From Desulfobacterales bacterium (GTDB lineage: Bacteria > Desulfobacterota > Desulfobacteria > Desulfobacterales > JAIPEE01), in contig JAIPEE010000039.1 of the NCBI GenBank assembly GCA_021737275.1, positions 1-34,643 on the forward strand: a DNA stretch of 34,643 nt, read 5' to 3'. How positions within the stretch are numbered: position 1 is the first letter of the stretch; the number at the start of each line of letters is the position of its first letter. The position numbers and the translations under genes are program-made. Below are positions 2,950 to 26,361 of this stretch, one piece after another. The notes under the pieces were generated by a model. That model was not told the origin of the DNA. It did no database searches and was given only the letters and a program-made list of their open reading frames with translations.

Positions 2950-4641
2950 TTACTGTCCCATTTCCAATTCATAGGGCCAGCCTATAACCCCGCCTTCCAT
3001 AAACCAGACACGATCATAACCCTGAGCATTCAGGATGCGCTGCGCTTCATAACCCCGCATGCTCACTTTACACATGGCGATGATATCCCGATCCCGGGGC
3101 AGTTCGTTAATTCGTTCCCGTAAAGCGCCCAAGGGAATATGAAGCACGTCATAGGGCAGTCGGACTTCTTTGAATTCCTGGGGCGTACGGGTATCCAGTA
3201 TCACCACATCTCCGACTTCGAAACGCTTGTGGGCCTCGATGGAGGAAATGCCCTTTGCAAGCCCGTCCAGTTTATTGCTCAACACATGGGCGCAGGTGGC
3301 CAGGGGTTCAATGGGCGGACTGAAAGGCGGTGCATAGGCAAAGTCCACATCCGCCAATTGATCCAAAGTACCGCCAAACAGGATTACGGTGGCAGAAACA
3401 TCCAGAAAGCGTTTACCCGCATCTCCCAGACCCGCAACCTGGACCCCGATCAACTTTCGGTCCCGGCGATTGGCAATCATTTTAATGATACCGGGCTTAG
3501 CTCCCATGTAATGGGGTTTGTCCGGACCTGCCCAGGTAGTGACTTCCACGTCTAGGTTTAAAGCACGAGCCTGGTTTTCAGACATACCGGTGCGACCAAG
3601 CGTATAGTCGAAAATCTTGACGATTCCTGTACAGGCAATACCGCTAAAGGGCGTTGGCGCACCAGCTATGTGATTGGCAATAACCCGGCCGTGCTTATTG
3701 GCTGTGGAACCAAGGGGAACGAACAACTGGTTGCCGGCGTTTTGGCCCGCATACTTGTTTACGACGCAGTCGCCACCCGCATAAATGTCAGGATCACTGG
3801 TCTGACAATATTCGTTGACCACGATTCGATCCCGGCAAAGAAGGTCGGCATCCCGGGCCAGCTTATCATTGGGCCGTGTGCCCACCGCCACTACCACTAG
3901 GTCCGCCGGATAAGTTCCCTGGTCAGTTTTCACCGCACTGACCGCTTCCTCACCCTCCAGATTCGTTGCCCGCTCGCCCAGGACAACCTTGACACCCTTG
4001 CTTTTGACGTACTTGGTGGCAAAAAGGGCTATATCCTCATCCAGAATACCCGGCATAATCTGGGGAGCCATCTCGATCAGGGTTACCTCCATACCTTTGT
4101 GGGTCATGGCTTCAGCCATTTCCATACCGATAAAACCGGCCCCCACCATTACCGCCTTTTTAAACCCCTGGGCCTTGGCTTCCCGTACCAGGGATTCGGC
4201 ATGATCAGGATGGGTCATAAAGAAGACGTTCTTGAGATCAATCCCCGGAATGGGTGGTTTAAACCCCTTACCGCCGGTGGCCAGTACCAGTTTGTCATAG
4301 GCCATATCGCACTCTTCGCCGTTATCCAGATTCTTGACGTGTACGGTCTTGGCGGATCGATCGATTTTGGTCGCCTCGGTGCGAGTCAGAACCTTAAATC
4401 CTTTGGCTTTTTCAAAGAAAACAGCTGTCCGTGGAACCCCTGCAGGTGTGTGGGTCAGGGTTTCTATGTCGTCGAAATAGCCCTCCACATAATAAGGAAG
4501 GCCGCATGCCCCATAGGAAACGATGCTATCCCGGTCGATGAGTGTAATGTCCGCTTCGGGCATGAGGCGTTTCAGACGACAGGCAGCTTTAGGGCCACAG
4601 GCGACTCCGCCGACAATCAATACTTTTAATTTTTTTGACAT
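2950..4641 (-). CDS. CoA-disulfide reductase / persulfide reductase with C-terminal rhodanese domain
   Basis: 563 residues. A class-I-like FAD/NAD(P)H disulfide oxidoreductase core fills about 1-445: FAD loop GGVACGPKAACRL (11-23), single redox cysteine in SYGACGLPY (Cys46), second nucleotide loop VGAGFIGMEMAE, and 'DPDIYAGGDCV' for the FAD tail. The C-terminus (about 465-563) is a rhodanese domain with 'VVILDTRTPQEF' and active-site MCKVSMRG (Cys524). This architecture matches CoA-disulfide reductase-rhodanese fusions and the NADH-dependent persulfide reductase (Npsr), which reduce CoA-disulfide, CoA-persulfide or polysulfide. Last gene of the thioredoxin/transporter/flavodoxin run, 103 nt after the flavodoxin gene, with AAGGAA before the ATG. 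Its GC content is visibly higher than its neighbours', suggesting separate acquisition. Confidence 0.9.
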   Translation of the reverse strand: MSKKLKVLIVGGVACGPKAACRLKRLMPEADITLIDRDSIVSYGACGLPYYVEGYFDDIETLTHTPAGVPRTAVFFEKAKGFKVLTRTEATKIDRSAKTVHVKNLDNGEECDMAYDKLVLATGGKGFKPPIPGIDLKNVFFMTHPDHAESLVREAKAQGFKKAVMVGAGFIGMEMAEAMTHKGMEVTLIEMAPQIMPGILDEDIALFATKYVKSKGVKVVLGERATNLEGEEAVSAVKTDQGTYPADLVVVAVGTRPNDKLARDADLLCRDRIVVNEYCQTSDPDIYAGGDCVVNKYAGQNAGNQLFVPLGSTANKHGRVIANHIAGAPTPFSGIACTGIVKIFDYTLGRTGMSENQARALNLDVEVTTWAGPDKPHYMGAKPGIIKMIANRRDRKLIGVQVAGLGDAGKRFLDVSATVILFGGTLDQLADVDFAYAPPFSPPIEPLATCAHVLSNKLDGLAKGISSIEAHKRFEVGDVVILDTRTPQEFKEVRLPYDVLHIPLGALRERINELPRDRDIIAMCKVSMRGYEAQRILNAQGYDRVWFMEGGVIGWPYELEMGQ

Positions 4642-5273: not shown

Positions 5274-6821
5274 TTAGTCAGGCAATCGAACAACCAGCAC
5301 GGGTCGGGAACATTTCCTGATAACACCGCTGGAAATACTGCCGATCATAACACCCTCAAGCTTCCCATGCCCATGCGCCCCCATAACAACCAGATCATAA
5401 TCACCTTTTTCAGCAACAGATATAATCCGGTCAACGGGGTTACCTACCTCAACACAAATATCACTCTGTGAAAGGGGACAAGCCGGCAGATCTTTCAAAA
5501 TTGAAGCGGATGTCTCCTGGATACGTTTATGTATGGCTGTTTTTGCCGCCTGGATACTTTTTTCATTAAATGCTCTCCGTCTTTTTTCTTCAACATGACC
5601 AGCCAGATCGATGCCGGCTTCAGATGAAAACTCTTCAAGAATATCCGAAACAACATGAAGTACAGTCACTTTTGCATTATATTTATCTCCAATACTGCAG
5701 GCATAATTAACTGCAAAACGGGCGGTTTCAGATAAATCTGTTGCATAAAGAATCTTATTAATTTCCGGTGATGTTGTTTCTATTTTTGGCCCAGCTGCTT
5801 TAAGTGCTATACTTTTTTCCGGTTTCACAGCTTCTTCTTTGATCTTATCGGGCGATATTATTGCCGGACCAAATAATCTGTCCGTCAGTTTAACATACCA
5901 GGCCGCTGACTGCACCTGAATAATATAAGCAATGGCAACCACAAGCGCAGCACTTGATCCTTCGGGGCCGAAAGCATTAATCGCAATGGCAAGCGCAATG
6001 GACAGATTGCGCATGACTGATCCATAAACAAGCGCTATGGCATCACCCCGTGGAAGCAGACTCCTGCCGATGATTGTACTGAGAATAAAATTAAAAATAT
6101 AAATAATTGAAAGCGGAATCAGAATATAGACAAGCAATTCAGGTGCAGAGATAATACTCTTTGCTTTCAGTGCAATTGCAATAAAAACAATACCTATCAC
6201 ACCAATGGTTGACATAGATGGAAACCTTGGTGCAATACCTTGCTGAAAACCATTCACGCCAAATTTCTTAATGAGCCCCTGGCGGGTATAATAACCGGCA
6301 ATCATTGGAACAAAAACAATTACAGCAATTTGCTTCATGACCAGGAGAATATCGACATCAAGGTTGGCTCCCATCAGGTATTTTACATAAAAAGGTGTTG
6401 CCACAGAACCCAGGGTAAGCCCGATTACCGTCATTTTTACGGCGGCTTCAATATTGCCCTTTGCAAAACCGGTCCATGAAATTGTCATACCACTGGTAGG
6501 GACGAGGCCGGCCAGAAGCAGCCCCAGGGCCATATAGGGACTATCTTTGAAAAAAAGAAGCCCGAGACCAAAAGCAACAAAAGGAACAATTCCAAAATTA
6601 ATTAATTGGGTCAGAATCTGTGCTTTCAGATCCCCGCCTTCAAAAACCTTTTTTATTTTCAGTGTAACCATCATCGGATACACCATCAGAAATGTAAAAG
6701 GAATGATCAGGTTTTTTAAGAATGCTGCCGGAAAAAACATACCGTATATAAATCCGAATACCATTGTTACCGGTATGGCTATAATAAGGTTTTTATTTAT
6801 ACTTCCAAGAAATTTCCACAT
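5274..6821 (-). CDS. ACR3/bile-acid:Na+ symporter-family transporter fused to a universal stress domain
   Basis: 515 residues. Residues 1 to about 320 are hydrophobic with around ten membrane segments and the BASS/ACR3 fold (first segments NLIIAIPVTMVFGFIYGMFF and FLMVYPMMVTL). The conserved segment reads VPTSGMTISW (107-116), where arsenite carriers of the ACR3 group normally have a Pro-Cys-Thr; the cysteine is absent. Residues 355-515 form a UspA domain (INKILYATDLSETARFAV ... MGAHGHGKLEGVMIGS) with an intact G-x2-G-x9-G-S nucleotide motif. The substrate is therefore open: an organic anion or a metalloid. The cytosolic Usp domain may gate transport by nucleotide binding. It lies in the sigma-54 thioredoxin operon, 94 nt after the small Cys-rich gene. 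Confidence 0.85.
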   Translation of the reverse strand: MWKFLGSINKNLIIAIPVTMVFGFIYGMFFPAAFLKNLIIPFTFLMVYPMMVTLKIKKVFEGGDLKAQILTQLINFGIVPFVAFGLGLLFFKDSPYMALGLLLAGLVPTSGMTISWTGFAKGNIEAAVKMTVIGLTLGSVATPFYVKYLMGANLDVDILLVMKQIAVIVFVPMIAGYYTRQGLIKKFGVNGFQQGIAPRFPSMSTIGVIGIVFIAIALKAKSIISAPELLVYILIPLSIIYIFNFILSTIIGRSLLPRGDAIALVYGSVMRNLSIALAIAINAFGPEGSSAALVVAIAYIIQVQSAAWYVKLTDRLFGPAIISPDKIKEEAVKPEKSIALKAAGPKIETTSPEINKILYATDLSETARFAVNYACSIGDKYNAKVTVLHVVSDILEEFSSEAGIDLAGHVEEKRRRAFNEKSIQAAKTAIHKRIQETSASILKDLPACPLSQSDICVEVGNPVDRIISVAEKGDYDLVVMGAHGHGKLEGVMIGSISSGVIRKCSRPVLVVRLPD

Positions 6822-7119: not shown

Positions 7120-7446
7120 TCACCCTTGCGCCATTACATTATTTAACGCATCGGCAAGCACTGATTCAGCCTGAAGCCCTACAAAACGCTGTAGCTCTTT
7201 GCTGTTTTTAAAAATAACCAGTGTTGGAATCCCCTGAATACCAAACCGTGCAGCCAGTTCCCGATGCTCATCAATATTGACTTCTGCAATTGATGCTCTG
7301 CCCCGATACTTTTCTTCAAGTTTTTTAATTATTGGCTCCTGGGACCGACAGGGTGCGCACCAGGGTGCATTGAAATCTATCAGTGTGATACCGTGTTTTA
7401 TGATATTTTCGAAATCTGTTTTAAGCTTTTTTTCTATATCTGCCAT
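7120..7446 (-). CDS. trxA: Thioredoxin
   Basis: 108 residues, the usual thioredoxin length. The active site is WCAPC (Cys30 and Cys33), with the upstream strand TLIDFNAP and the cis-proline loop GIPTL. It differs from the classical WCGPC by Ala for Gly, which should alter redox potential. Cytoplasmic thiol:disulfide oxidoreductase. It is the first gene of a run that includes a Cys-rich small protein, a transporter-Usp fusion, a flavodoxin and a CoA-disulfide-reductase/rhodanese. A GGGGG ribosome site precedes the ATG. A sigma-54-like promoter lies about 40 nt upstream and enhancer-like palindromes about 190 nt upstream. No thioredoxin reductase is present in the window. Confidence 0.93.
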   Translation of the reverse strand: MADIEKKLKTDFENIIKHGITLIDFNAPWCAPCRSQEPIIKKLEEKYRGRASIAEVNIDEHRELAARFGIQGIPTLVIFKNSKELQRFVGLQAESVLADALNNVMAQG

Positions 7447-7486: not shown

Positions 7487-7502
7487 AACAAATACCATGC
7501 CA
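7487..7502 (-). promoter_or_regulatory. Sigma-54 (-24/-12) promoter of the thioredoxin operon
   Basis: The minus strand reads TGGCATGGTATTTGTT against the consensus TGGCACGNNNNTTGCW. GG-N10-GT keeps the required spacing, with one weak base in the -12 element. It lies 41 nt before the thioredoxin start and 138 bp from the nearest edge of the palindromic sites at 7639-7683. Confidence 0.6.
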
Positions 7503-7638: not shown

Positions 7639-7683
7639 AGTAGCGCTACTTTTGCCCATAAGTAGCGCATTGGTAACGCTACC
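7639..7683. promoter_or_regulatory. Enhancer-like operator cluster (GTAGCGCTAC palindromes) upstream of trx
   Basis: AGTAGCGCTACT (7639-7650) is a perfect palindrome. GGTAACGCTACC (7672-7683) is a near-palindrome starting 33 bp later, and a further half-site GTAGCG is at 7662-7667, 11 bp before it. The half-site is CGYTAC. The cluster lies in the roughly 360-nt gene-free space between the regulator's 3' end and thioredoxin. The same palindrome pair with the same 33-bp spacing occurs at 9271-9313, so these are the probable binding sites of the regulator encoded at 7805-9208. Confidence 0.65.
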
Positions 7684-7804: not shown

Positions 7805-9208
7805 TCATTCACGCTGGAGTGGAATATCCCATTTTTTCATATATTTCCAAATTGAAGCCCTGCTAAGACCCACCCGACGGCCCACTTCAGCTTTATTCCA
7901 ATCGCTTGCTTCAAGGAGTTCAAGTAATATATCACGAGATAATTTTTCCCGTATAGGATTTTCGGCAAAGCGTTTTTTGTTATTTTCCTTAATAGAATGT
8001 TGATACCCCATCTGACGAACTTCAACAGGCAGATCAAAAACATCAATATAGTCACCCCGGCAAACGACAAACGCATATTCAATTGCATTTTCCAGCTCCC
8101 GGACATTTCCGGGCCAATTGTAATCAAGTAAAAATCTTGTGGCAGACCGGGCAATACCGCTGATATTTTTATTCGTCAGTTTATTCTTGATATTGATAAA
8201 ATGGCTGACCAAAAGAGGAATATCTTCTTTCCTGTTTTTTAAAGGAGGCATATTAATGGGAAAAACTTTAAGGCGATAATAAAGATCCTCCCGAAAAAGA
8301 CCTTCCTTCACAAGGTTATACAGATCCTTGTTTGATGCCGTGATGATTCTGATATCGATTTTGCGTTTTACGGATTCACCGACCCGTTCGATTTCCCTTT
8401 CCTGCAAAACCCGTAGCAGTTTTAACTGAATTAGCGGACTGATTTCACCAATTTCATCCAGAAACAATGTGCCGCCGTCAGCCTCTTCAAATCGTCCGAT
8501 TCGATCGTGTATGGCCCCTGTGTAGGCACCCTTTACATGTCCAAAAAGTTCACTTTCCAAAAGAGATTCGGAAAGTGCGCTGCAGTTTACAGATACAAAC
8601 GGCATTTCGGCGCGGTCGCTATTATAATGAATAGCACCGGCTACCAATTCCTTACCGGTTCCACTTTCGCCCTGAATCAAAATGGTAGCCTCACTATCAG
8701 CCGCTAGTTTAATGGAGGAAAACACCTGTTTCATTAAGTCACTTTTACCGATAATATTATGGAGCTTATGAATATTTCCCAACTGCAGAGACGCTTCTTC
8801 CGCTTTTTGCCGTGCCTTGTGCAGTTCAGTGAGATCCGTAATGGTTTCAACGACACCTCGAAGACGGCCGGATTTATCCCGGACAAGCCTTGCGCTTTTA
8901 ACGACATAAATATCATTTCCATTTTTATTTTGCAGGAAACACTCCTTGCCGTCAACGCTGCCATATTCAAAAATTCCACAGGTTTTAAATCCTGTTGGGC
9001 AGCTTTTACCAAAACAGCGACTGAATTTAAGCAAGGAGCATGATTTGCCGAGCGCTTCATCTGAAGTATAACCCGTTATCCGCTCCATTGCAGGATTCCA
9101 CGAAGTGATACACCCCTCTTCATCAAGCGTAAATACGCCGCCGGCCATTGATTCCAGTAATAAGCCTGCAAATTCAGAGGGGAAAATGTCATTTTTTATT
9201 TTTTTCAT
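7805..9208 (-). CDS. Sigma-54-dependent transcriptional activator (PAS-AAA+-HTH)
   Basis: 467 residues. A PAS domain (about 14-130) carries a cysteine cluster at 57, 65, 70, 77 and 90 (including CFGKSCPTGFKTC), suggesting redox, metal or Fe-S sensing. The AAA+ domain (about 150-395) has Walker A GESGTGKE (180-187), the sigma-54 contact loop GAYTGA (228-233, the accepted variant of GAFTGA), Walker B TLFLDE and the WPGNVRELENAIE end. The Fis-like HTH is at about 425-463 (NKAEVGRRVGLSRASIWKYMKKW). There is no receiver domain, so the signal is probably sensed directly. Palindromic GTAGCGCTAC sites lie on both sides of the gene at matching distances from -24/-12 promoters, which marks it as the probable local regulator of the flanking redox genes. 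Confidence 0.93.
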   Translation of the reverse strand: MKKIKNDIFPSEFAGLLLESMAGGVFTLDEEGCITSWNPAMERITGYTSDEALGKSCSLLKFSRCFGKSCPTGFKTCGIFEYGSVDGKECFLQNKNGNDIYVVKSARLVRDKSGRLRGVVETITDLTELHKARQKAEEASLQLGNIHKLHNIIGKSDLMKQVFSSIKLAADSEATILIQGESGTGKELVAGAIHYNSDRAEMPFVSVNCSALSESLLESELFGHVKGAYTGAIHDRIGRFEEADGGTLFLDEIGEISPLIQLKLLRVLQEREIERVGESVKRKIDIRIITASNKDLYNLVKEGLFREDLYYRLKVFPINMPPLKNRKEDIPLLVSHFINIKNKLTNKNISGIARSATRFLLDYNWPGNVRELENAIEYAFVVCRGDYIDVFDLPVEVRQMGYQHSIKENNKKRFAENPIREKLSRDILLELLEASDWNKAEVGRRVGLSRASIWKYMKKWDIPLQRE

Positions 9209-9270: not shown

Positions 9271-9313
9271 GTAGCGCTACCAAGACAGTTTTTACTATCA
9301 TAGGTAGCGCCAC
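9271..9313. promoter_or_regulatory. Enhancer-like palindrome pair upstream of the redoxin lipoprotein
   Basis: GTAGCGCTAC (9271-9280, perfect palindrome) and GTAGCGCCAC (9304-9313, one half changed) start 33 bp apart, exactly as in the pair at 7640/7673. The nearest edge is 140 bp from the -24 element at 9453. It is also 62-105 bp upstream of the regulator's own start at 9208, so autoregulation is possible; I found no -24/-12 promoter facing the regulator. Confidence 0.65.
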
Positions 9314-9452
9314 ATTCATTTGTCAACTTTTTTCTTCTTTTTGCCGTCAGGATTTTATTTTATGACAGATTATAATTAAAACCGTAGTAAAACAGTAAGT
9401 TAAATATATCTAACGATAAAATATCAAAATTATTTTCAACCATCTCATCTGC

Positions 9453-9468
9453 CGGCACCCTATTTGTA
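9453..9468 (+). promoter_or_regulatory. Sigma-54-like promoter of the lipoprotein gene
   Basis: CGGCACCCTATTTGTA keeps GGCAC and GG-N10-GT spacing against TGGCACGNNNNTTGCW. The first base and one -12 base deviate. It lies about 210 nt before the lipoprotein start, so a long leader would result. Support comes mainly from its 140-bp distance to the palindrome pair, matching the thioredoxin promoter. Confidence 0.45.
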
Positions 9469-9678: not shown

Positions 9679-10254
9679 ATGAAAAAAATTAACATTGTAC
9701 TTTTGGCTGCTATCCTAATGGCCGCATCTATCGGATGTGCTACACAGCAAGGGCCTCAAACAGGCATGATTATGCCCGAAACTAAAATGGCAACAGGCAT
9801 CAAAGCGCCCCAAATTAGTTACCAGGACACATCTGGAAAGGCTCATCAATTACCCGGCATTGGTGACGGGTATACTCTTTTGGTTTTTAACAGAGAGAAA
9901 ATTTGTGCTGATGAAAATTCTGTTCTCATTGAAACAGCAAAGTCTTTTTCCAGAAAAGATTTGCCGGTTATCGTTGTGGAAATTATCGGAGGCGAAAAAG
10001 GGTGTGAAAATGCCCAGAAAGATTGTGTTTTGAAAAGATCCATAGCAAACGGCAAATTCTTCACATTGTGTGATGATTCAGGGGAAGCTAATCGGCAGTT
10101 CGGTGTAAATGATGCATCCTCACTTTACCTTATCAATGAGTTTGGCACCATTGTTCAGATGGCACCTTATGCCAACCTTGATGGCTTACTTGATCGTACG
10201 GGCTCTTTGGCAAATAAGCTGAAAGAAGAACAACAGCGAGATGATGGGGCTTGA
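9679..10254 (+). CDS. Lipoprotein with thioredoxin/peroxiredoxin-like fold
   Basis: 191 residues. Residues 1-20 are a lipoprotein signal peptide (KK, hydrophobic core, lipobox ASIGC with the modified Cys at 20), so it is exported and lipid-anchored. The mature part has 'KAPQISYQDTSGKAHQLPGIGDGYTLLVFNREKICADE' and 'FFTLCDDSGEANRQFGVNDASSLYLINEFGTIVQM', the layout of the redoxin/AhpC-TSA fold, with Cys in the KICADE loop and further cysteines in GCENAQKDC. The usual CxxC or TxxC signature is not obvious, so catalytic activity is uncertain. AAAGGAG precedes the ATG. It reads away from the sigma-54 regulator and is probably in its regulon. Confidence 0.75.
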   Translation: MKKINIVLLAAILMAASIGCATQQGPQTGMIMPETKMATGIKAPQISYQDTSGKAHQLPGIGDGYTLLVFNREKICADENSVLIETAKSFSRKDLPVIVVEIIGGEKGCENAQKDCVLKRSIANGKFFTLCDDSGEANRQFGVNDASSLYLINEFGTIVQMAPYANLDGLLDRTGSLANKLKEEQQRDDGA

Positions 10255-10502: not shown

Positions 10503-11084
10503 TTATTCCTTTGATTTTGCCGTAACAATCCTCAAATCTGCCAGGGTTGTTTCCCGGTAAGGCTTTTTCAACTTGATACTTTCTTTGCTAAAGAGCCAGA
10601 TTTCAGGAATAATTTCAGTAATTAAATCCCCATCATCAAAAATACGAACGACTGAACTCTCAGAAACCACCACAGCAACAGAACGAGTATCGTGCGTAAT
10701 GGAAGCGGCTGCCACATGACGGCTCCCCAAACCTAAAGGGAGCTCAATATTATCTGTGGAAGCATTGATGTAGCGGGAAGCGGATATCACCACCCCATTG
10801 CCTCCGACTATAAAAGCACCATCCAACTGGGCCAGCTCCTTTATTGTCTCTCTAACATTTGGATCGCATATGTGTTTACTTTCATCCGGATGGCCGTAAA
10901 GAGGGTCAAGAATGAGATTTCGTGATCTTTTAAGAACCGATATTTCATCGGAAACAACAAAAAGCGTACCGATCTTGCGTCCTTCTCGTCCTTCCCGGGC
11001 GATTTCTACAGCCAGTTGAATGGTTTGTTCCAGGACCTTGGTTTCACAATGCGTTTTCTGTCCACAAAGATCTTCAAAGTTCAT
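10503..11084 (-). CDS. Diadenylate cyclase-domain (DisA_N/DAC) protein
   Basis: 193 residues. The DAC fold is recognised from LAQLDGAFIVGGNGVVISASRYI (DGA at 88-90), then GLGSRHVAAASITHDTRSVAVVVSESSVVRIFDDGDLI (GSRH at 120-123). DAC enzymes make c-di-AMP from two ATP. The canonical second motif is G(T/S)RHR; here the final Arg is Val, resembling archaeal-type forms, so activity is likely but not certain. There is no DisA DNA-binding domain, CdaA membrane segments or YbbR partner; the 80 N-terminal residues are a distinct extension. It lies 45 nt after the DUF1638 gene and is probably co-transcribed from the sigma-54 promoter at 11824-11839. AAAGGAAA precedes the ATG. Confidence 0.78.
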   Translation of the reverse strand: MNFEDLCGQKTHCETKVLEQTIQLAVEIAREGREGRKIGTLFVVSDEISVLKRSRNLILDPLYGHPDESKHICDPNVRETIKELAQLDGAFIVGGNGVVISASRYINASTDNIELPLGLGSRHVAAASITHDTRSVAVVVSESSVVRIFDDGDLITEIIPEIWLFSKESIKLKKPYRETTLADLRIVTAKSKE

Positions 11085-11129: not shown

Positions 11130-11786
11130 TTATTTATCATAAAACTGACTCGCCTGGTCCAAAAGCAAGGATTTAAAACGATCCATGGTAACCGAATATC
11201 CCTGGATCGGAATCCCCATCCAATCAGAGTATTCCAGAATTTCTTCGGGCTTTTCAGCCATGGTGCGATCAAGGTATCCGATGCTGTCCAAAATGACGGC
11301 TCCACCGGTGTGCCGGGGAAAGTTCTCATTGGCCAGCGCTTTATCCCAATCTTTAAAAACGTTGTGGCGAAATTTGACCCAGCCGGGAGTCATCCACCAA
11401 ACCGGTTCTCCGTCGGCGATCTCGTCCGCAATTTTTGTCCGCTCCGTTTCGCCGGCCAGCATGTCCATACAATGCGTGGCTTGGATTGTGGCTATACCCG
11501 GACCGAGTTCTTCAATGATAGTTTGGATGGTACGAGTAGGTTGATCGGCATTGACGTAACAAAACTTACCGCCGTAGATTACAATGATCTTATCTGTCTT
11601 TTCTTTGGCCCGATTGATACGATCAACAAGCTGGTTTTCCAACTCGCGGATATCCTCATGAAGCCCGGGAGTGGTGTAAAACAGAATCCCGGTATCTAAA
11701 AAGCCCTCTCTTTTGAGATAGTTCAACTCAAGACTCAAGGTCCCGCAGGAGACAATGGCGATGCCCCCAAAAGATACATTTTCCAT
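11130..11786 (-). CDS. DUF1638 family protein
   Basis: 218 residues that resemble DUF1638 proteins: N-terminal 'IAIVSCGTLSLELNYLKREGFLD', a central strand 'IIVIYGGKFCYVN', then 'ATIQATHCMDMLAGETERTKIAD' and 'VWWMTPGWVKFRHNVFKDWD'. Conserved Cys and His residues (SCG, GKFC, THC) could bind a metal. The family is often found near corrinoid methyltransferase genes but its biochemical role is not established. Strong AAGGAGG precedes the ATG. It is the first gene of a two-gene unit with the diadenylate-cyclase-like gene, facing away from a 105-aa gene across a shared enhancer-like region. GC content is somewhat higher than in neighbouring genes. Confidence 0.7.
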   Translation of the reverse strand: MENVSFGGIAIVSCGTLSLELNYLKREGFLDTGILFYTTPGLHEDIRELENQLVDRINRAKEKTDKIIVIYGGKFCYVNADQPTRTIQTIIEELGPGIATIQATHCMDMLAGETERTKIADEIADGEPVWWMTPGWVKFRHNVFKDWDKALANENFPRHTGGAVILDSIGYLDRTMAEKPEEILEYSDWMGIPIQGYSVTMDRFKSLLLDQASQFYDK

Positions 11787-11823: not shown

Positions 11824-11839
11824 AGCAAAATCCGGGCCA
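11824..11839 (-). promoter_or_regulatory. Sigma-54 (-24/-12) promoter of the DUF1638-DAC unit
   Basis: The minus strand reads TGGCCCGGATTTTGCT: GG-N10-GC exact, with a single deviation in the -24 box (A to C). It lies 38 nt before the DUF1638 start. The phased CGTTAC repeats are 120-157 bp upstream. Confidence 0.7.
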
Positions 11840-11958
11840 TTCAAAACCATTAAATACTTATTGATGGTGGCCTTTCAACTAAACGTTTAATAATACAAAT
11901 ATTAATTATTAAATTTTTAAAAGCGAATTATCGGATAAAAAATGGAAGCCATAAAATG

Positions 11959-11996
11959 CGTTACCTTATCGTTACCATAGCGTTACATTACGTTAC
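11959..11996. promoter_or_regulatory. Four helically phased CGTTAC repeats between divergent sigma-54 promoters
   Basis: CGTTAC occurs at 11959, 11970, 11981 and 11991, all in the same orientation at 11, 11 and 10 bp spacing, so all lie on one face of the helix. CGTTAC is the same half-site as in GTAACGCTAC near thioredoxin. One unit, ATAGCGTTAC (11977-11986), is nearly the full palindrome. The array sits 120 bp from the leftward -24 element and 148 bp from the rightward one, normal enhancer distances. The remainder of this roughly 470-nt gene-free region is AT-rich with no other feature. Confidence 0.65.
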
Positions 11997-12143
11997 GAAT
12001 TGCGAAAAAGTAATGCGGCCTATATATTATTTTGATTTACAATTCTTTTATTCAATGCCTTTCTTAAAGCGAATATTTAAAATTTAATCAAAATGATAGA
12101 TAGTTCTATACGTACCTGTTTTTTTAAAAATATTTTCCACTAT

Positions 12144-12159
12144 TGGCATCAATAATGCA
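12144..12159 (+). promoter_or_regulatory. Sigma-54 (-24/-12) promoter of the 105-aa gene
   Basis: TGGCATCAATAATGCA has GG-N10-GC spacing and a good TGCA -12 element. It lies 95 nt before the start codon at 12254 and 148-185 bp downstream of the phased CGTTAC array. Confidence 0.6.
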
Positions 12160-12253: not shown

Positions 12254-12571
12254 ATGAAAGCCAAAAATTGTTGTAAAACCATGGAAATGGAACTCACCGC
12301 CTGGAAAGCAATTATTTATGACATTGCCCGTAAAATGGAGAAATTACCCGGCGGTGAAAAACAGAAAATTCTTCCAAACATCGAGGATCTCCACATGCTC
12401 ATCGAAGAAATGGACGACAGAATCGAACAGATTAGAGAAAATTGTACCCCGGAAACCGGCATTGATGATATCAAAACAGACAAGGAAAAAATTGATCAGT
12501 TAATGGGCGGCCTTCGCGTAAAAACTGAAGAAGCCATGAAAGTTCTGGGAGCGGGAAACTTCGGTGGTTGA
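12254..12571 (+). CDS. Small helical hypothetical protein
   Basis: 105 residues, unrecognised family. It starts MKAKNCCKTMEMELTAWKAIIYDIARKME, with a vicinal Cys pair at 6-7, and is predicted largely alpha-helical with heptad-like spacing (IEDLHMLIEEMDDRIEQIREN), so it may form a coiled coil or helical bundle. It is soluble, acidic and without a signal peptide. AAAGGAG precedes the ATG. It is certainly expressed as a unit of its own: a -24/-12 promoter upstream and a strong terminator 22 nt downstream. Sharing an enhancer region with the DUF1638/diadenylate-cyclase genes suggests a role in the same response. No function can be assigned. Confidence 0.7.
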   Translation: MKAKNCCKTMEMELTAWKAIIYDIARKMEKLPGGEKQKILPNIEDLHMLIEEMDDRIEQIRENCTPETGIDDIKTDKEKIDQLMGGLRVKTEEAMKVLGAGNFGG

Positions 12572-23298: not shown

Positions 23299-26200
23299 AT
23301 GAAAATAAAACAATTCCGGCAAAACTTTAATCGCCTTCAAAAAACGGCAGTTATTCTGTCCATACTCTTTATCTTCTACATATTATTTGGATTTTTTATA
23401 TTACCGCCCATTATAAAAATACAGATGGTTAAAAATATCCATAAAGCTACCAACCGTAACGTCACACTGGAAAAAGTCAGGTTCAACCCGCTTGTACTCT
23501 CCCTGACGCTGCAGAATTTTAATATAGAAGGAAAAGGAGGGGAAGCGTTTGTCGGATGGCAGGAATTTTATATCAATTTTCAGCTATCCACTATTTTCAG
23601 ATTTGCCTGGACATTTGACGAAATCAGACTCATAAAGCCCGGCATTTTCATAGAAAAAGTAACTGCGGATACATTTAACTTCTCTGATCTGATTCCGGAA
23701 TCATCAACTGAGACAAAAGAAAACGAAACGAAAGAAAATGCTGAAGAAGATAATAAAATACCACCGGTCCGAATAAATAAACTAATCTTTGACGGTGGAA
23801 GATTCCATCTTCGCGACAGCTCCCGTGGAGGAAATGCGGATTTTTCTCTTGATTCCGTCTCTTTTGAGCTGGATAACTTCAAGACCCGTTTAAAACCGGA
23901 TCAGAACAATACCTACGATTTTAAGGCTGTTGGGCCTAAAGGTGGTTTTTTACACTGGAACGGCACATTCCGTCTGACCCCGCTTGAGTCAAAAGGACTT
24001 ATTGAGCTTTCAGGGATTCATTTAACATCCTTTATCAATTTTTTTAAAGATGAGCTCCAGTTTACCATGCCAAGAGGTCTTTTGGGTTTCAGTACACAAT
24101 ATCATGTTTTTGGAAACCCTGAATGGGGTGTTGAATTATCACAGGGAGACTACACCTTTACCGATCTTCTGATTACTGAAAAAGAGACGGAAGACACACT
24201 TTTTGAGTTACCGTTTTTCGATATCAACAATGTCGGACTCTCTTTAAATGATCAGAAAATTACTGTCGGGGACATAACTGTAAAAGATGCCAGGCTGAAT
24301 CCTTCTATAAATAAGTCCGGGGAAATGAATCTTTTAAAAGCGTTTGATATGTCGGCATTTAAAAATTCCCCTGAAAATGACGTACCTGCCGAATCGAAAA
24401 AAACAGATATTGAAGAGACTGAAAAAACTTATCCGGGATGGTACTGGGAAGTTGGATCTTTTAATATTGATAGCTTTGGGGTTAATTTTTCAGACAACAT
24501 GCCTCAAACACCTTTTAATTATTCGGTATATCCCGTTCATCTTCAGGTTAAGGACATTGTCAGTGACGGTCACAAACCATTCAACCTTACATTTTCCAGC
24601 ATCCTGAATGAAACAGGCAGTATTTCGGCTTCAGGCTCCGGAACTGTTAAGCCGGTATCACTGTCAGTTGATATTAATAAAAAGAATCATGTGCTTAAAG
24701 ACTTCCAACCCTATATTGACCGGTTTGCCCATATTACAATACTTGACGGTACGAATGATGGTACGATGCATGTTGAAGTTAATATGGATGAAAATGGAGA
24801 ATTTACCAAACTCCATGCCGAAGGAGACGATTACATCAACAATTTGAACCTGCATGATAATGTAACAAATAAGGATTTGGTAAAGTGGAAAAAATATGCA
24901 GCCGAAGGTATAAAAGTAGATATTCTTTCTAACCACGCAACGATCAATAAGATAACCTTAACTGAACCTGATCTGAATTTTCAGATCAATGAAAATTTTA
25001 CGACCAATATCCAGCAACTCATTGTCTCTTCTGAAAAAAAAGAGCACGGGGAGGCAGCTGAGCCCGATTCCGAAGATGAGGCAAGTGATCCTGAAACAGA
25101 AACCGAACCGATTGAGGAAACAAAAAAGACTTCTGAAAATCCGTTCCAGGTTTCGATCAATGAAATTGTTATTGAAAACGGCACTGCCGGATTTGCAGAT
25201 CTGTCACTTAAACCGGACTTTATTACTGAAATCGGTCAGCTTAACGGCCTTATTACCGGTTCATCTAATATACCCGGTAAAACAGCAACCGTCGATATCA
25301 AGGGCAAGGTGGACCATCATGCCCCGGTTTTCATAAAAGGCAAATCCAATCTGCTGGCGGAAAAGCAAACGGCTGACATTACTGTTTCATTTAAAAATAT
25401 TGAAATGTCCTCGTTTACCCCCTATTCCGGGACCTATGCCGGATACAAAATTGATAAGGGGCAGCTTTCCGTTGATCTTCAGTATCTTTTAAATGCCAAT
25501 GAACTCCATGGTAATAACAAGATCGTTATTAACAAACTCGAATTCGGAGACAAAGTCGAAAGTGAAAAAGCAATCAACCTGCCATTGAAACTGGCGGTTG
25601 CACTATTAAGTGATGCCAATGGCGTTATTGACCTTGGCCTTGTTGTTGAAGGTGACCTCAATGATCCGGAATTCAATATTGGCGGTATTATATGGAAAGT
25701 ATTGAAAAATTTAATTGTAAAAGCGGTCAGCTCTCCGTTTACGCTCCTGGCAGGACTGGTTGATGGTGGTGAAGACCTTAATATTGTAACATTTTCACCA
25801 GGCAAAGATCTACCTGAAGGAGATGAATATGAAAAAGTAGTTCAACTTGCCGGCGCCCTTGCAGAACGCCCGAAACTGAGTCTGAACATACGTGGACAGG
25901 TTGCATACAAATCCGATCTTCACAGTTTGAAGCAAATGTATCTGGATAATATGTTGACCGCCACTTCAGAAATTAATGCAGCAGAGATCGGCGGCGTTCT
26001 TTCGGCAGCCCGGGAACGAAAATGGCGCAATACGCTTTTTGATTTATACAAGGACTCTTTTGACGAAAGCTGGCGCGATGTTCGGGACAGGCTTACAGAA
26101 GAAGCCGGAGTCAATGGGGAAGAGATCGATAAAGAGCTGCTGTTTAACAGAACAGTTGAAGTAGTCTATAATGCACTAATAGATAAACAGCCCATAACCG

Positions 26201-26361
26201 AAGAAAATCTTCATATTCTTGCCGACAACCGGTCCCGGAATATCAAGGTTGAACTTGTTGAAAACCATGCAATCGATCCGGGGCGGATTTTTATATTGGA
26301 ATCTGAGATTTCACCCGGTACAGAAAGCAGTGCTGTTGAAATGACACTTGATGCATTGTAA
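23299..26361 (+). CDS. DUF748/AsmA-like envelope protein
   Basis: 1020 residues. A single N-terminal membrane segment (about 16-38, AVILSILFIFYILFGFFILPP) is followed by a long periplasmic part. 'NIHKATNRNVTLEKVRFNPLVLSLTLQNFNIEGKGGEAFVGWQEFYINFQLSTIFRFAWTFDEIRLIKPG' is the DUF748 opening, related to AsmA/TamB beta-rich lipid-transfer proteins. Two acidic low-complexity linkers (around 135-152 and 580-620) break the repeats. The C-terminal part has 'LSLNIRGQVAYKSDLHSLKQMYLDNML', typical of DUF748 ends. It probably acts at the cell envelope, perhaps in lipid transport between membranes. It is monocistronic with a terminator downstream; the start is weakly supported by CTGAGG. Confidence 0.85.
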   Translation: MKIKQFRQNFNRLQKTAVILSILFIFYILFGFFILPPIIKIQMVKNIHKATNRNVTLEKVRFNPLVLSLTLQNFNIEGKGGEAFVGWQEFYINFQLSTIFRFAWTFDEIRLIKPGIFIEKVTADTFNFSDLIPESSTETKENETKENAEEDNKIPPVRINKLIFDGGRFHLRDSSRGGNADFSLDSVSFELDNFKTRLKPDQNNTYDFKAVGPKGGFLHWNGTFRLTPLESKGLIELSGIHLTSFINFFKDELQFTMPRGLLGFSTQYHVFGNPEWGVELSQGDYTFTDLLITEKETEDTLFELPFFDINNVGLSLNDQKITVGDITVKDARLNPSINKSGEMNLLKAFDMSAFKNSPENDVPAESKKTDIEETEKTYPGWYWEVGSFNIDSFGVNFSDNMPQTPFNYSVYPVHLQVKDIVSDGHKPFNLTFSSILNETGSISASGSGTVKPVSLSVDINKKNHVLKDFQPYIDRFAHITILDGTNDGTMHVEVNMDENGEFTKLHAEGDDYINNLNLHDNVTNKDLVKWKKYAAEGIKVDILSNHATINKITLTEPDLNFQINENFTTNIQQLIVSSEKKEHGEAAEPDSEDEASDPETETEPIEETKKTSENPFQVSINEIVIENGTAGFADLSLKPDFITEIGQLNGLITGSSNIPGKTATVDIKGKVDHHAPVFIKGKSNLLAEKQTADITVSFKNIEMSSFTPYSGTYAGYKIDKGQLSVDLQYLLNANELHGNNKIVINKLEFGDKVESEKAINLPLKLAVALLSDANGVIDLGLVVEGDLNDPEFNIGGIIWKVLKNLIVKAVSSPFTLLAGLVDGGEDLNIVTFSPGKDLPEGDEYEKVVQLAGALAERPKLSLNIRGQVAYKSDLHSLKQMYLDNMLTATSEINAAEIGGVLSAARERKWRNTLFDLYKDSFDESWRDVRDRLTEEAGVNGEEIDKELLFNRTVEVVYNALIDKQPITEENLHILADNRSRNIKVELVENHAIDPGRIFILESEISPGTESSAVEMTLDAL

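Follow-up and report, generated by a model that had tools for sequence, protein, structure and literature searches.

A one-turn lattice of CGTTAC units between divergent -24/-12 promoters as a probable sigma-54 enhancer of a PAS-AAA+-Fis activator family in Desulfobacterales

RESULTS

A phased CGTTAC array is very probably a sigma-54 enhancer

Four CGTTAC units on the plus strand (starting at 11959, 11970, 11981, and 11991) form an array, 11959 to 11996. Its sequence and that of its counterparts in related bacteria make it very probable that the array serves as a sigma-54 enhancer (UAS). Positions are those of the window, the whole 34,643-nt stretch of Desulfobacterales DNA that was analyzed. 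We consider it highly likely that the array is the UAS of a Desulfobacterales-type family of PAS-AAA+-Fis activators, that it carries the spelling used by family members with threonine at residue 451, and that it is read either at reduced affinity by a neighboring Ala451 activator or by a Thr451 sister absent from the assembly.

The units are spaced by 11, 11, and 10 bp. They lie 120 bp from a minus-strand -24/-12 promoter (TGGCCCGGATTTTGCT, 11824 to 11839) and 148 bp from a plus-strand one (TGGCATCAATAATGCA, 12144 to 12159); repeats, spacings, promoters, and distances were all as described in an earlier note made from the sequence. Four copies of CGTTAC at 10- to 12-bp spacing, or of any other 6-mer with all four bases, were found in none of 300 dinucleotide-preserving shuffles of the window, and three copies at such spacing were reached in 5 of 300. 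Across the 4.26-Mb genome, GTARCG pairs with 10- or 11-bp spacing occurred only in the window (at 7662, 11959, 11970, and 11981).

Each CGTTAC of the array belongs to an imperfect GTAACGTTAC palindrome, of which it forms the better arm. The earlier note had regarded a direct array as unusual for dimeric activators. That puzzle is gone: the units are nearly palindromic in themselves, which makes the "direct" array an inverted one as well. The array shares with known UASs multiple activator-family sites on one helix face, a -24/-12 promoter at about 80 to 200 bp, and rpoN in the genome. A classical NtrC-type UAS is a discrete dyad of two half-sites with a fixed spacer; in the array, by contrast, quasi-palindromic units follow one another in a continuous lattice.

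Genes on both sides of the array

The minus-strand promoter is a perfect TGGCN7TTGCT, matching TGGCN7TTGCW throughout, and lies 38 bp before the ATG (11786) of a gene encoding a DUF1638 protein (11130 to 11786, minus strand), a probable target. The second gene of this minus-strand operon encodes a DAC-domain (diadenylate cyclase) protein (10503 to 11084, minus strand). The latter is a stand-alone DAC protein beside DUF1638 in a probable sigma-54 regulon, and universal stress proteins are encoded near it (1598 to 2524 and 5274 to 6821). The plus-strand promoter precedes the target gene 12254 (12254 to 12571, plus strand), which encodes a 105-aa protein with weak likeness to the sll1863 stress-response family. 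Elsewhere in the window, positions 23299 to 26361 hold an open reading frame of 1020 aa.

In one relative (genome G015, locus L041), the orthologs of 12254, thioredoxin, flavin oxidoreductase, DUF1638, and DAC form a single gene run downstream of an array, with 12254, DUF1638, and DAC in a shared operon. The two sides of the window array thus carry genes that belong elsewhere to one operon, and it is plausible that both divergent promoters share the array. The 12254 ortholog at that locus is a tandem duplicate in one 200-aa frame (3752 to 4354). A divergent gene order like that of the window was not seen among the relatives, so conservation backs the plus-strand side only; support for the array acting on the minus-strand promoter comes from a single promoter match in one genome.

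Conservation was followed at 12254 orthologs (at least 62% identity; 23 upstream regions), and the array proved to be conserved there. A -24/-12 site was found in 18 of the 23 regions, and in nearly all 18 the half-sites lay 115 to 161 bp farther upstream of it. Locus L235 is an exception in that its nearest half-site is closer, with its others about 146 bp away, and the exact half-site is missing in two of the 18. Copies of 12254 inside operons had neither promoter nor array. Arrays also occurred at 12254 loci with no activator gene in view (L225, L226, L238, L239, L241, and L244). The 12254 orthologs L241 (G222:C254) and L231 (G061:C114) have GTAACG arrays in genomes where no family activator was detected, and we regard these as further orphan arrays.

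A recognition unit on a helical lattice tracks one activator family

The gene at 7805 to 9208 (minus strand) encodes a PAS-AAA+(sigma-54)-Fis HTH activator of the Ala451 class. It carries PF00158 and PF02954 and has the features of the NtrC family: an AAA+ sigma-54 interaction domain, a GAFTGA loop (here GAYTGA), and a Fis-type HTH. Its orthologs, at 56 to 71% identity, separated cleanly from other NtrC-family proteins (at most 48%) and were found in relatives that include Desulfobacula, Desulfotignum, and Desulfococcus genomes. Five cysteines of the PAS region (57, 65, 70, 77, and 90) are invariant or nearly so among 87 orthologs and possibly form a metal, Fe-S, or disulfide switch.

The pattern CGTTACN5CGTTAC was searched in 96 order-level relatives, and intergenic matches repeatedly adjoined orthologs of 7805-9208 and the thioredoxin gene. 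Per-genome presence or absence of the exact pattern discriminated weakly, since many matches were single chance ones inside genes; position beside the activator was the useful signal. Eighty-eight upstream regions were then selected by the Desulfobacterales-type activator protein rather than by the motif. They contained 228 GTARCG half-sites versus 17.8 (sd 4.3) in shuffles, a comparison among phylogenetically non-independent orthologs. Same-strand half-sites were spaced by 10 to 11, 20 to 22, or 31 to 33 bp, convergent pairs by 4 bp (the palindrome GTAACGTTAC), and divergent pairs by about 7, 18, 28 to 29, or 39 bp, all of which fit a single lattice of about 10.5 bp. The recognition unit upstream of most of the 88 orthologs is a quasi-palindromic GTARCGYTAC repeated on a helical lattice. 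In the profile around the half-site the opposite arm was present at lower information, so that CGTTAC forms an imperfect palindrome together with this weaker arm.

Activator coding sequence, a 104-kb control, contained 39 half-sites and one spaced pair. The 70 regions upstream of other NtrC-family genes held 17 half-sites, none of them in a phased or palindromic pair. In 63 regions, 53 sigma-54-like sites were directed away from the activator and 3 were on the control strand; these 53 -24/-12 matches lay mostly 80 to 160 bp from the array. The lattice, together with the promoter spacing in orthologs, backs the proposal of the earlier note that the window array works as a sigma-54 enhancer with its units on one face of the helix.

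The activator gene of the window is flanked by sites of its own. Those at 7640 to 7682 are GTAGCGCTAC (7640), GTAGCG (7662), and GTAACGCTAC (7673), at 22 and 11 bp, and lie 138 bp from a sigma-54-like promoter (TGGCATGGTATTTGTT, 7487 to 7502, minus strand) of a thioredoxin gene (7120 to 7446, minus strand), a probable target. Those at 9271 to 9313 are GTAGCGCTAC (9271) and GTAGCGCCAC (9304), with 33 bp between them. Here a site falls between the -35 and -10 elements of the activator gene's own sigma-70-like promoter (TTGACA-N18-TATGAT, 9297 to 9326, minus strand), an arrangement shared by 27 of 50 orthologs, and this suggests autorepression. A candidate sigma-54 promoter (CGGCACCCTATTTGTA, 9453 to 9468, plus strand) precedes gene 9679 (9679 to 10254, plus strand), encoding an AhpC/TSA-like protein and a possible target. 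The half-site of the 7640 and 9271 palindromes had been taken as identical to that of the array. It differs by one base (GTAGCG versus GTAACG), and the only exact GTAACG at these sites is at 7673 to 7678. At this base the sites of the two specificity classes in the activator family differ.

Residue 451 of the recognition helix co-varies with site spelling

The recognition helix is nearly invariant in the activator family except at residue 451. Threonine was found there in 49 of 50 members with mainly GTAACG sites upstream (the remaining one is gapped at this position), and alanine or serine in 22 of 22 members with mainly GTAGCG/GTGGCG sites (p = 1.3e-17). Counted per site, GTAACG made up 161 of 177 at Thr members and GTRGCG 79 of 87 (91%) at Ala/Ser members. 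A tree built without the HTH required two independent switches at residue 451. The association therefore did not arise once and pass down by inheritance, though it represents only two events.

The four array units had class scores of +3.0, +6.7, +2.2, and +8.3, summing to +20.3 bits in favor of the Thr class, and the window activator's own sites scored as Ala class (7644, -4.5; 9275, -4.2; 9308, -7.4 bits) except for a mixed unit at 7677 (+1.1 bits); the locus of the window (L054) is absent from the class-label alignment, and its sites did not enter score training. The spelling of the array, four times GTAACG, is therefore mismatched to the recognition-helix class of 7805-9208, which has Ala451.

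Eight genomes (G013, G018, G045, G050, G104, G128, G191, and G227) encode Thr451 and Ala451 activators together. In such genomes each activator mostly has sites of its own class upstream, as if the paralogs were insulated. On balance, we think it probable that Thr versus Ala/Ser at residue 451 switched the specificity of the family at least twice with enhancer lattices changing to match, that insulated activator-enhancer pairs coexist in single genomes, and that the window array is a member of one class beside an activator of the other.

Which protein reads the array

The comparisons support recognition of the array by the family of 7805-9208. To this extent the activator pairing made in the earlier note holds, but 7805-9208 itself is a doubtful reader, given its Ala451 and the GTAACG units. 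Cross-reading by this protein and a missing Thr451 sister are about equally likely explanations.

In the first, Ala451 would tolerate GTAACG, aided by the cooperativity of four phased units. This tentative explanation draws on the fact that the assembly holds no other HTH of this family besides that of 7805-9208 and that, in relatives, the genes flanking the array are part of the family's regulon. Mixed spellings also exist, as in GTAACGCTAC at 7673, in unit 3 of the array (ATAGCGTTAC, with one G-class arm), and in the 7 GTAACG among 87 half-sites at Ala451 members. Its difficulty is the prevalence of GTRGCG near Ala/Ser451 genes, set against an array that is GTAACG in four of four units and scores as Thr class.

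The second explanation, held with equal reserve, places a Thr451 sister in the ~4% of the genome missing from the assembly, or assumes its recent loss, which would have orphaned the enhancer. The class score of the array is as expected for such a reader, both classes often occur in one relative (e.g., G013 and G018), most 12254 orthologs are in genomes that encode Thr451 activators, and an array without a detected reader is likewise present in G222 and G061. However, no Thr451 HTH of this family was found in the assembly, which is 96.4% complete, and four intact units speak against a reader lost long ago. A paralog in the same genome (C5:5753) was rejected as reader; its helix (SRVTIWKWIKK) is of another type and its upstream region is without phased sites.

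OmpR/PhoB-type (winged-helix) response regulators use direct repeats of about 11 bp, much like the spacing seen here, and a regulator of this kind could act with no tie to sigma-54. We consider this very improbable and rejected it, since the motif tracks one gene family of bEBPs across the order, has a defined spacing to sigma-54 promoters, and co-varies with the activator's recognition helix. Chance origin was ruled out by the 300 shuffles, and a functionless neutral tandem array has a negligible probability in view of the restriction of the motif to one window of the genome and its conservation across genera.

DISCUSSION

The system described here is very probably a sigma-54 enhancer of a known kind, set apart by a lattice that runs on without a break at one-turn steps and by a specificity split at a single residue. 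A literature search turned up no paper describing this motif for a bEBP, or describing the activator family, and the main text of a sigma-54 study of Desulfovibrio vulgaris contains no GTAAC/GTTAC string (PMC4641369).

The nearest parallels differ in architecture. CbrB of Pseudomonas putida binds 6-bp subsites (TGTTAC/GTAACA) in either orientation on one helix face (PMC6296734). Its TGTTAC is one base from CGTTAC and is also distant from the sigma-54 promoter, but subsite centers are 20 to 25 bp apart and are called non-palindromic, whereas the array units are quasi-palindromic at 10 to 11 bp; CbrB is moreover a two-component response regulator (PMC6296734), and the window activator is PAS-type. 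Nla28 of Myxococcus xanthus uses an 8-bp half-site, CT(C/G)CG(C/G)AG, itself palindromic and in clusters of three to five (PMC9765219). As in the array, palindromic half-sites were described as a direct repeat, although they are loosely spaced and GC-rich with no helical lattice reported, and the regulator is again a two-component one (PMC9765219). GcsR of Pseudomonas aeruginosa, a TyrR-like regulator of glycine cleavage, has three tandem TGTAACG-N4-CGTTCCG sites upstream of a sigma-54 promoter, with arms that are nearly GTAACG but in fixed 18-bp inverted sites (PMC4894688). NmpR represents the typical NtrC-like UAS, GCGCA-N5-TGCGC, with half-sites one helical turn apart and several sites per promoter (PMC11841059); these are discrete inverted repeats, unlike the continuous 10- to 11-bp lattice of the array.

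Across orthologs, a 10-bp unit (GTAACGTTAC or GTAGCGCTAC) recurs every 10 to 11 bp on one side of the helix, with sigma-54 promoters about 80 to 160 bp away. We infer that every unit accommodates a single helix-turn-helix of the dimeric activator, because NtrC-type dimers such as NmpR and GcsR have half-sites separated by one helical turn. Direct repeats at this spacing would then work as inverted repeats, each unit reading nearly alike both ways, and four units would hold two dimers. The signal may be redox, metal, or stress related and sensed by the Cys-rich PAS region, given the five near-invariant cysteines and the thioredoxin and flavin target genes. The dimers would form an AAA+ ring, with the DNA looping out to the -24/-12 complex, and would open the 12254 promoter and probably the DUF1638-DAC promoter as well.

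These results define, by sequence comparison, a predicted binding code for a widespread and apparently uncharacterized family of sigma-54 activators in sulfate-reducer-type bacteria, with a probable regulon of thioredoxin, DUF1638, c-di-AMP cyclase, flavin oxidoreductase, and stress-like proteins. A phased lattice of self-palindromic units is a way for a dimeric activator to use direct repeats, and the residue-451 switch offers a natural, directly testable case of paralogous activators becoming insulated from each other.
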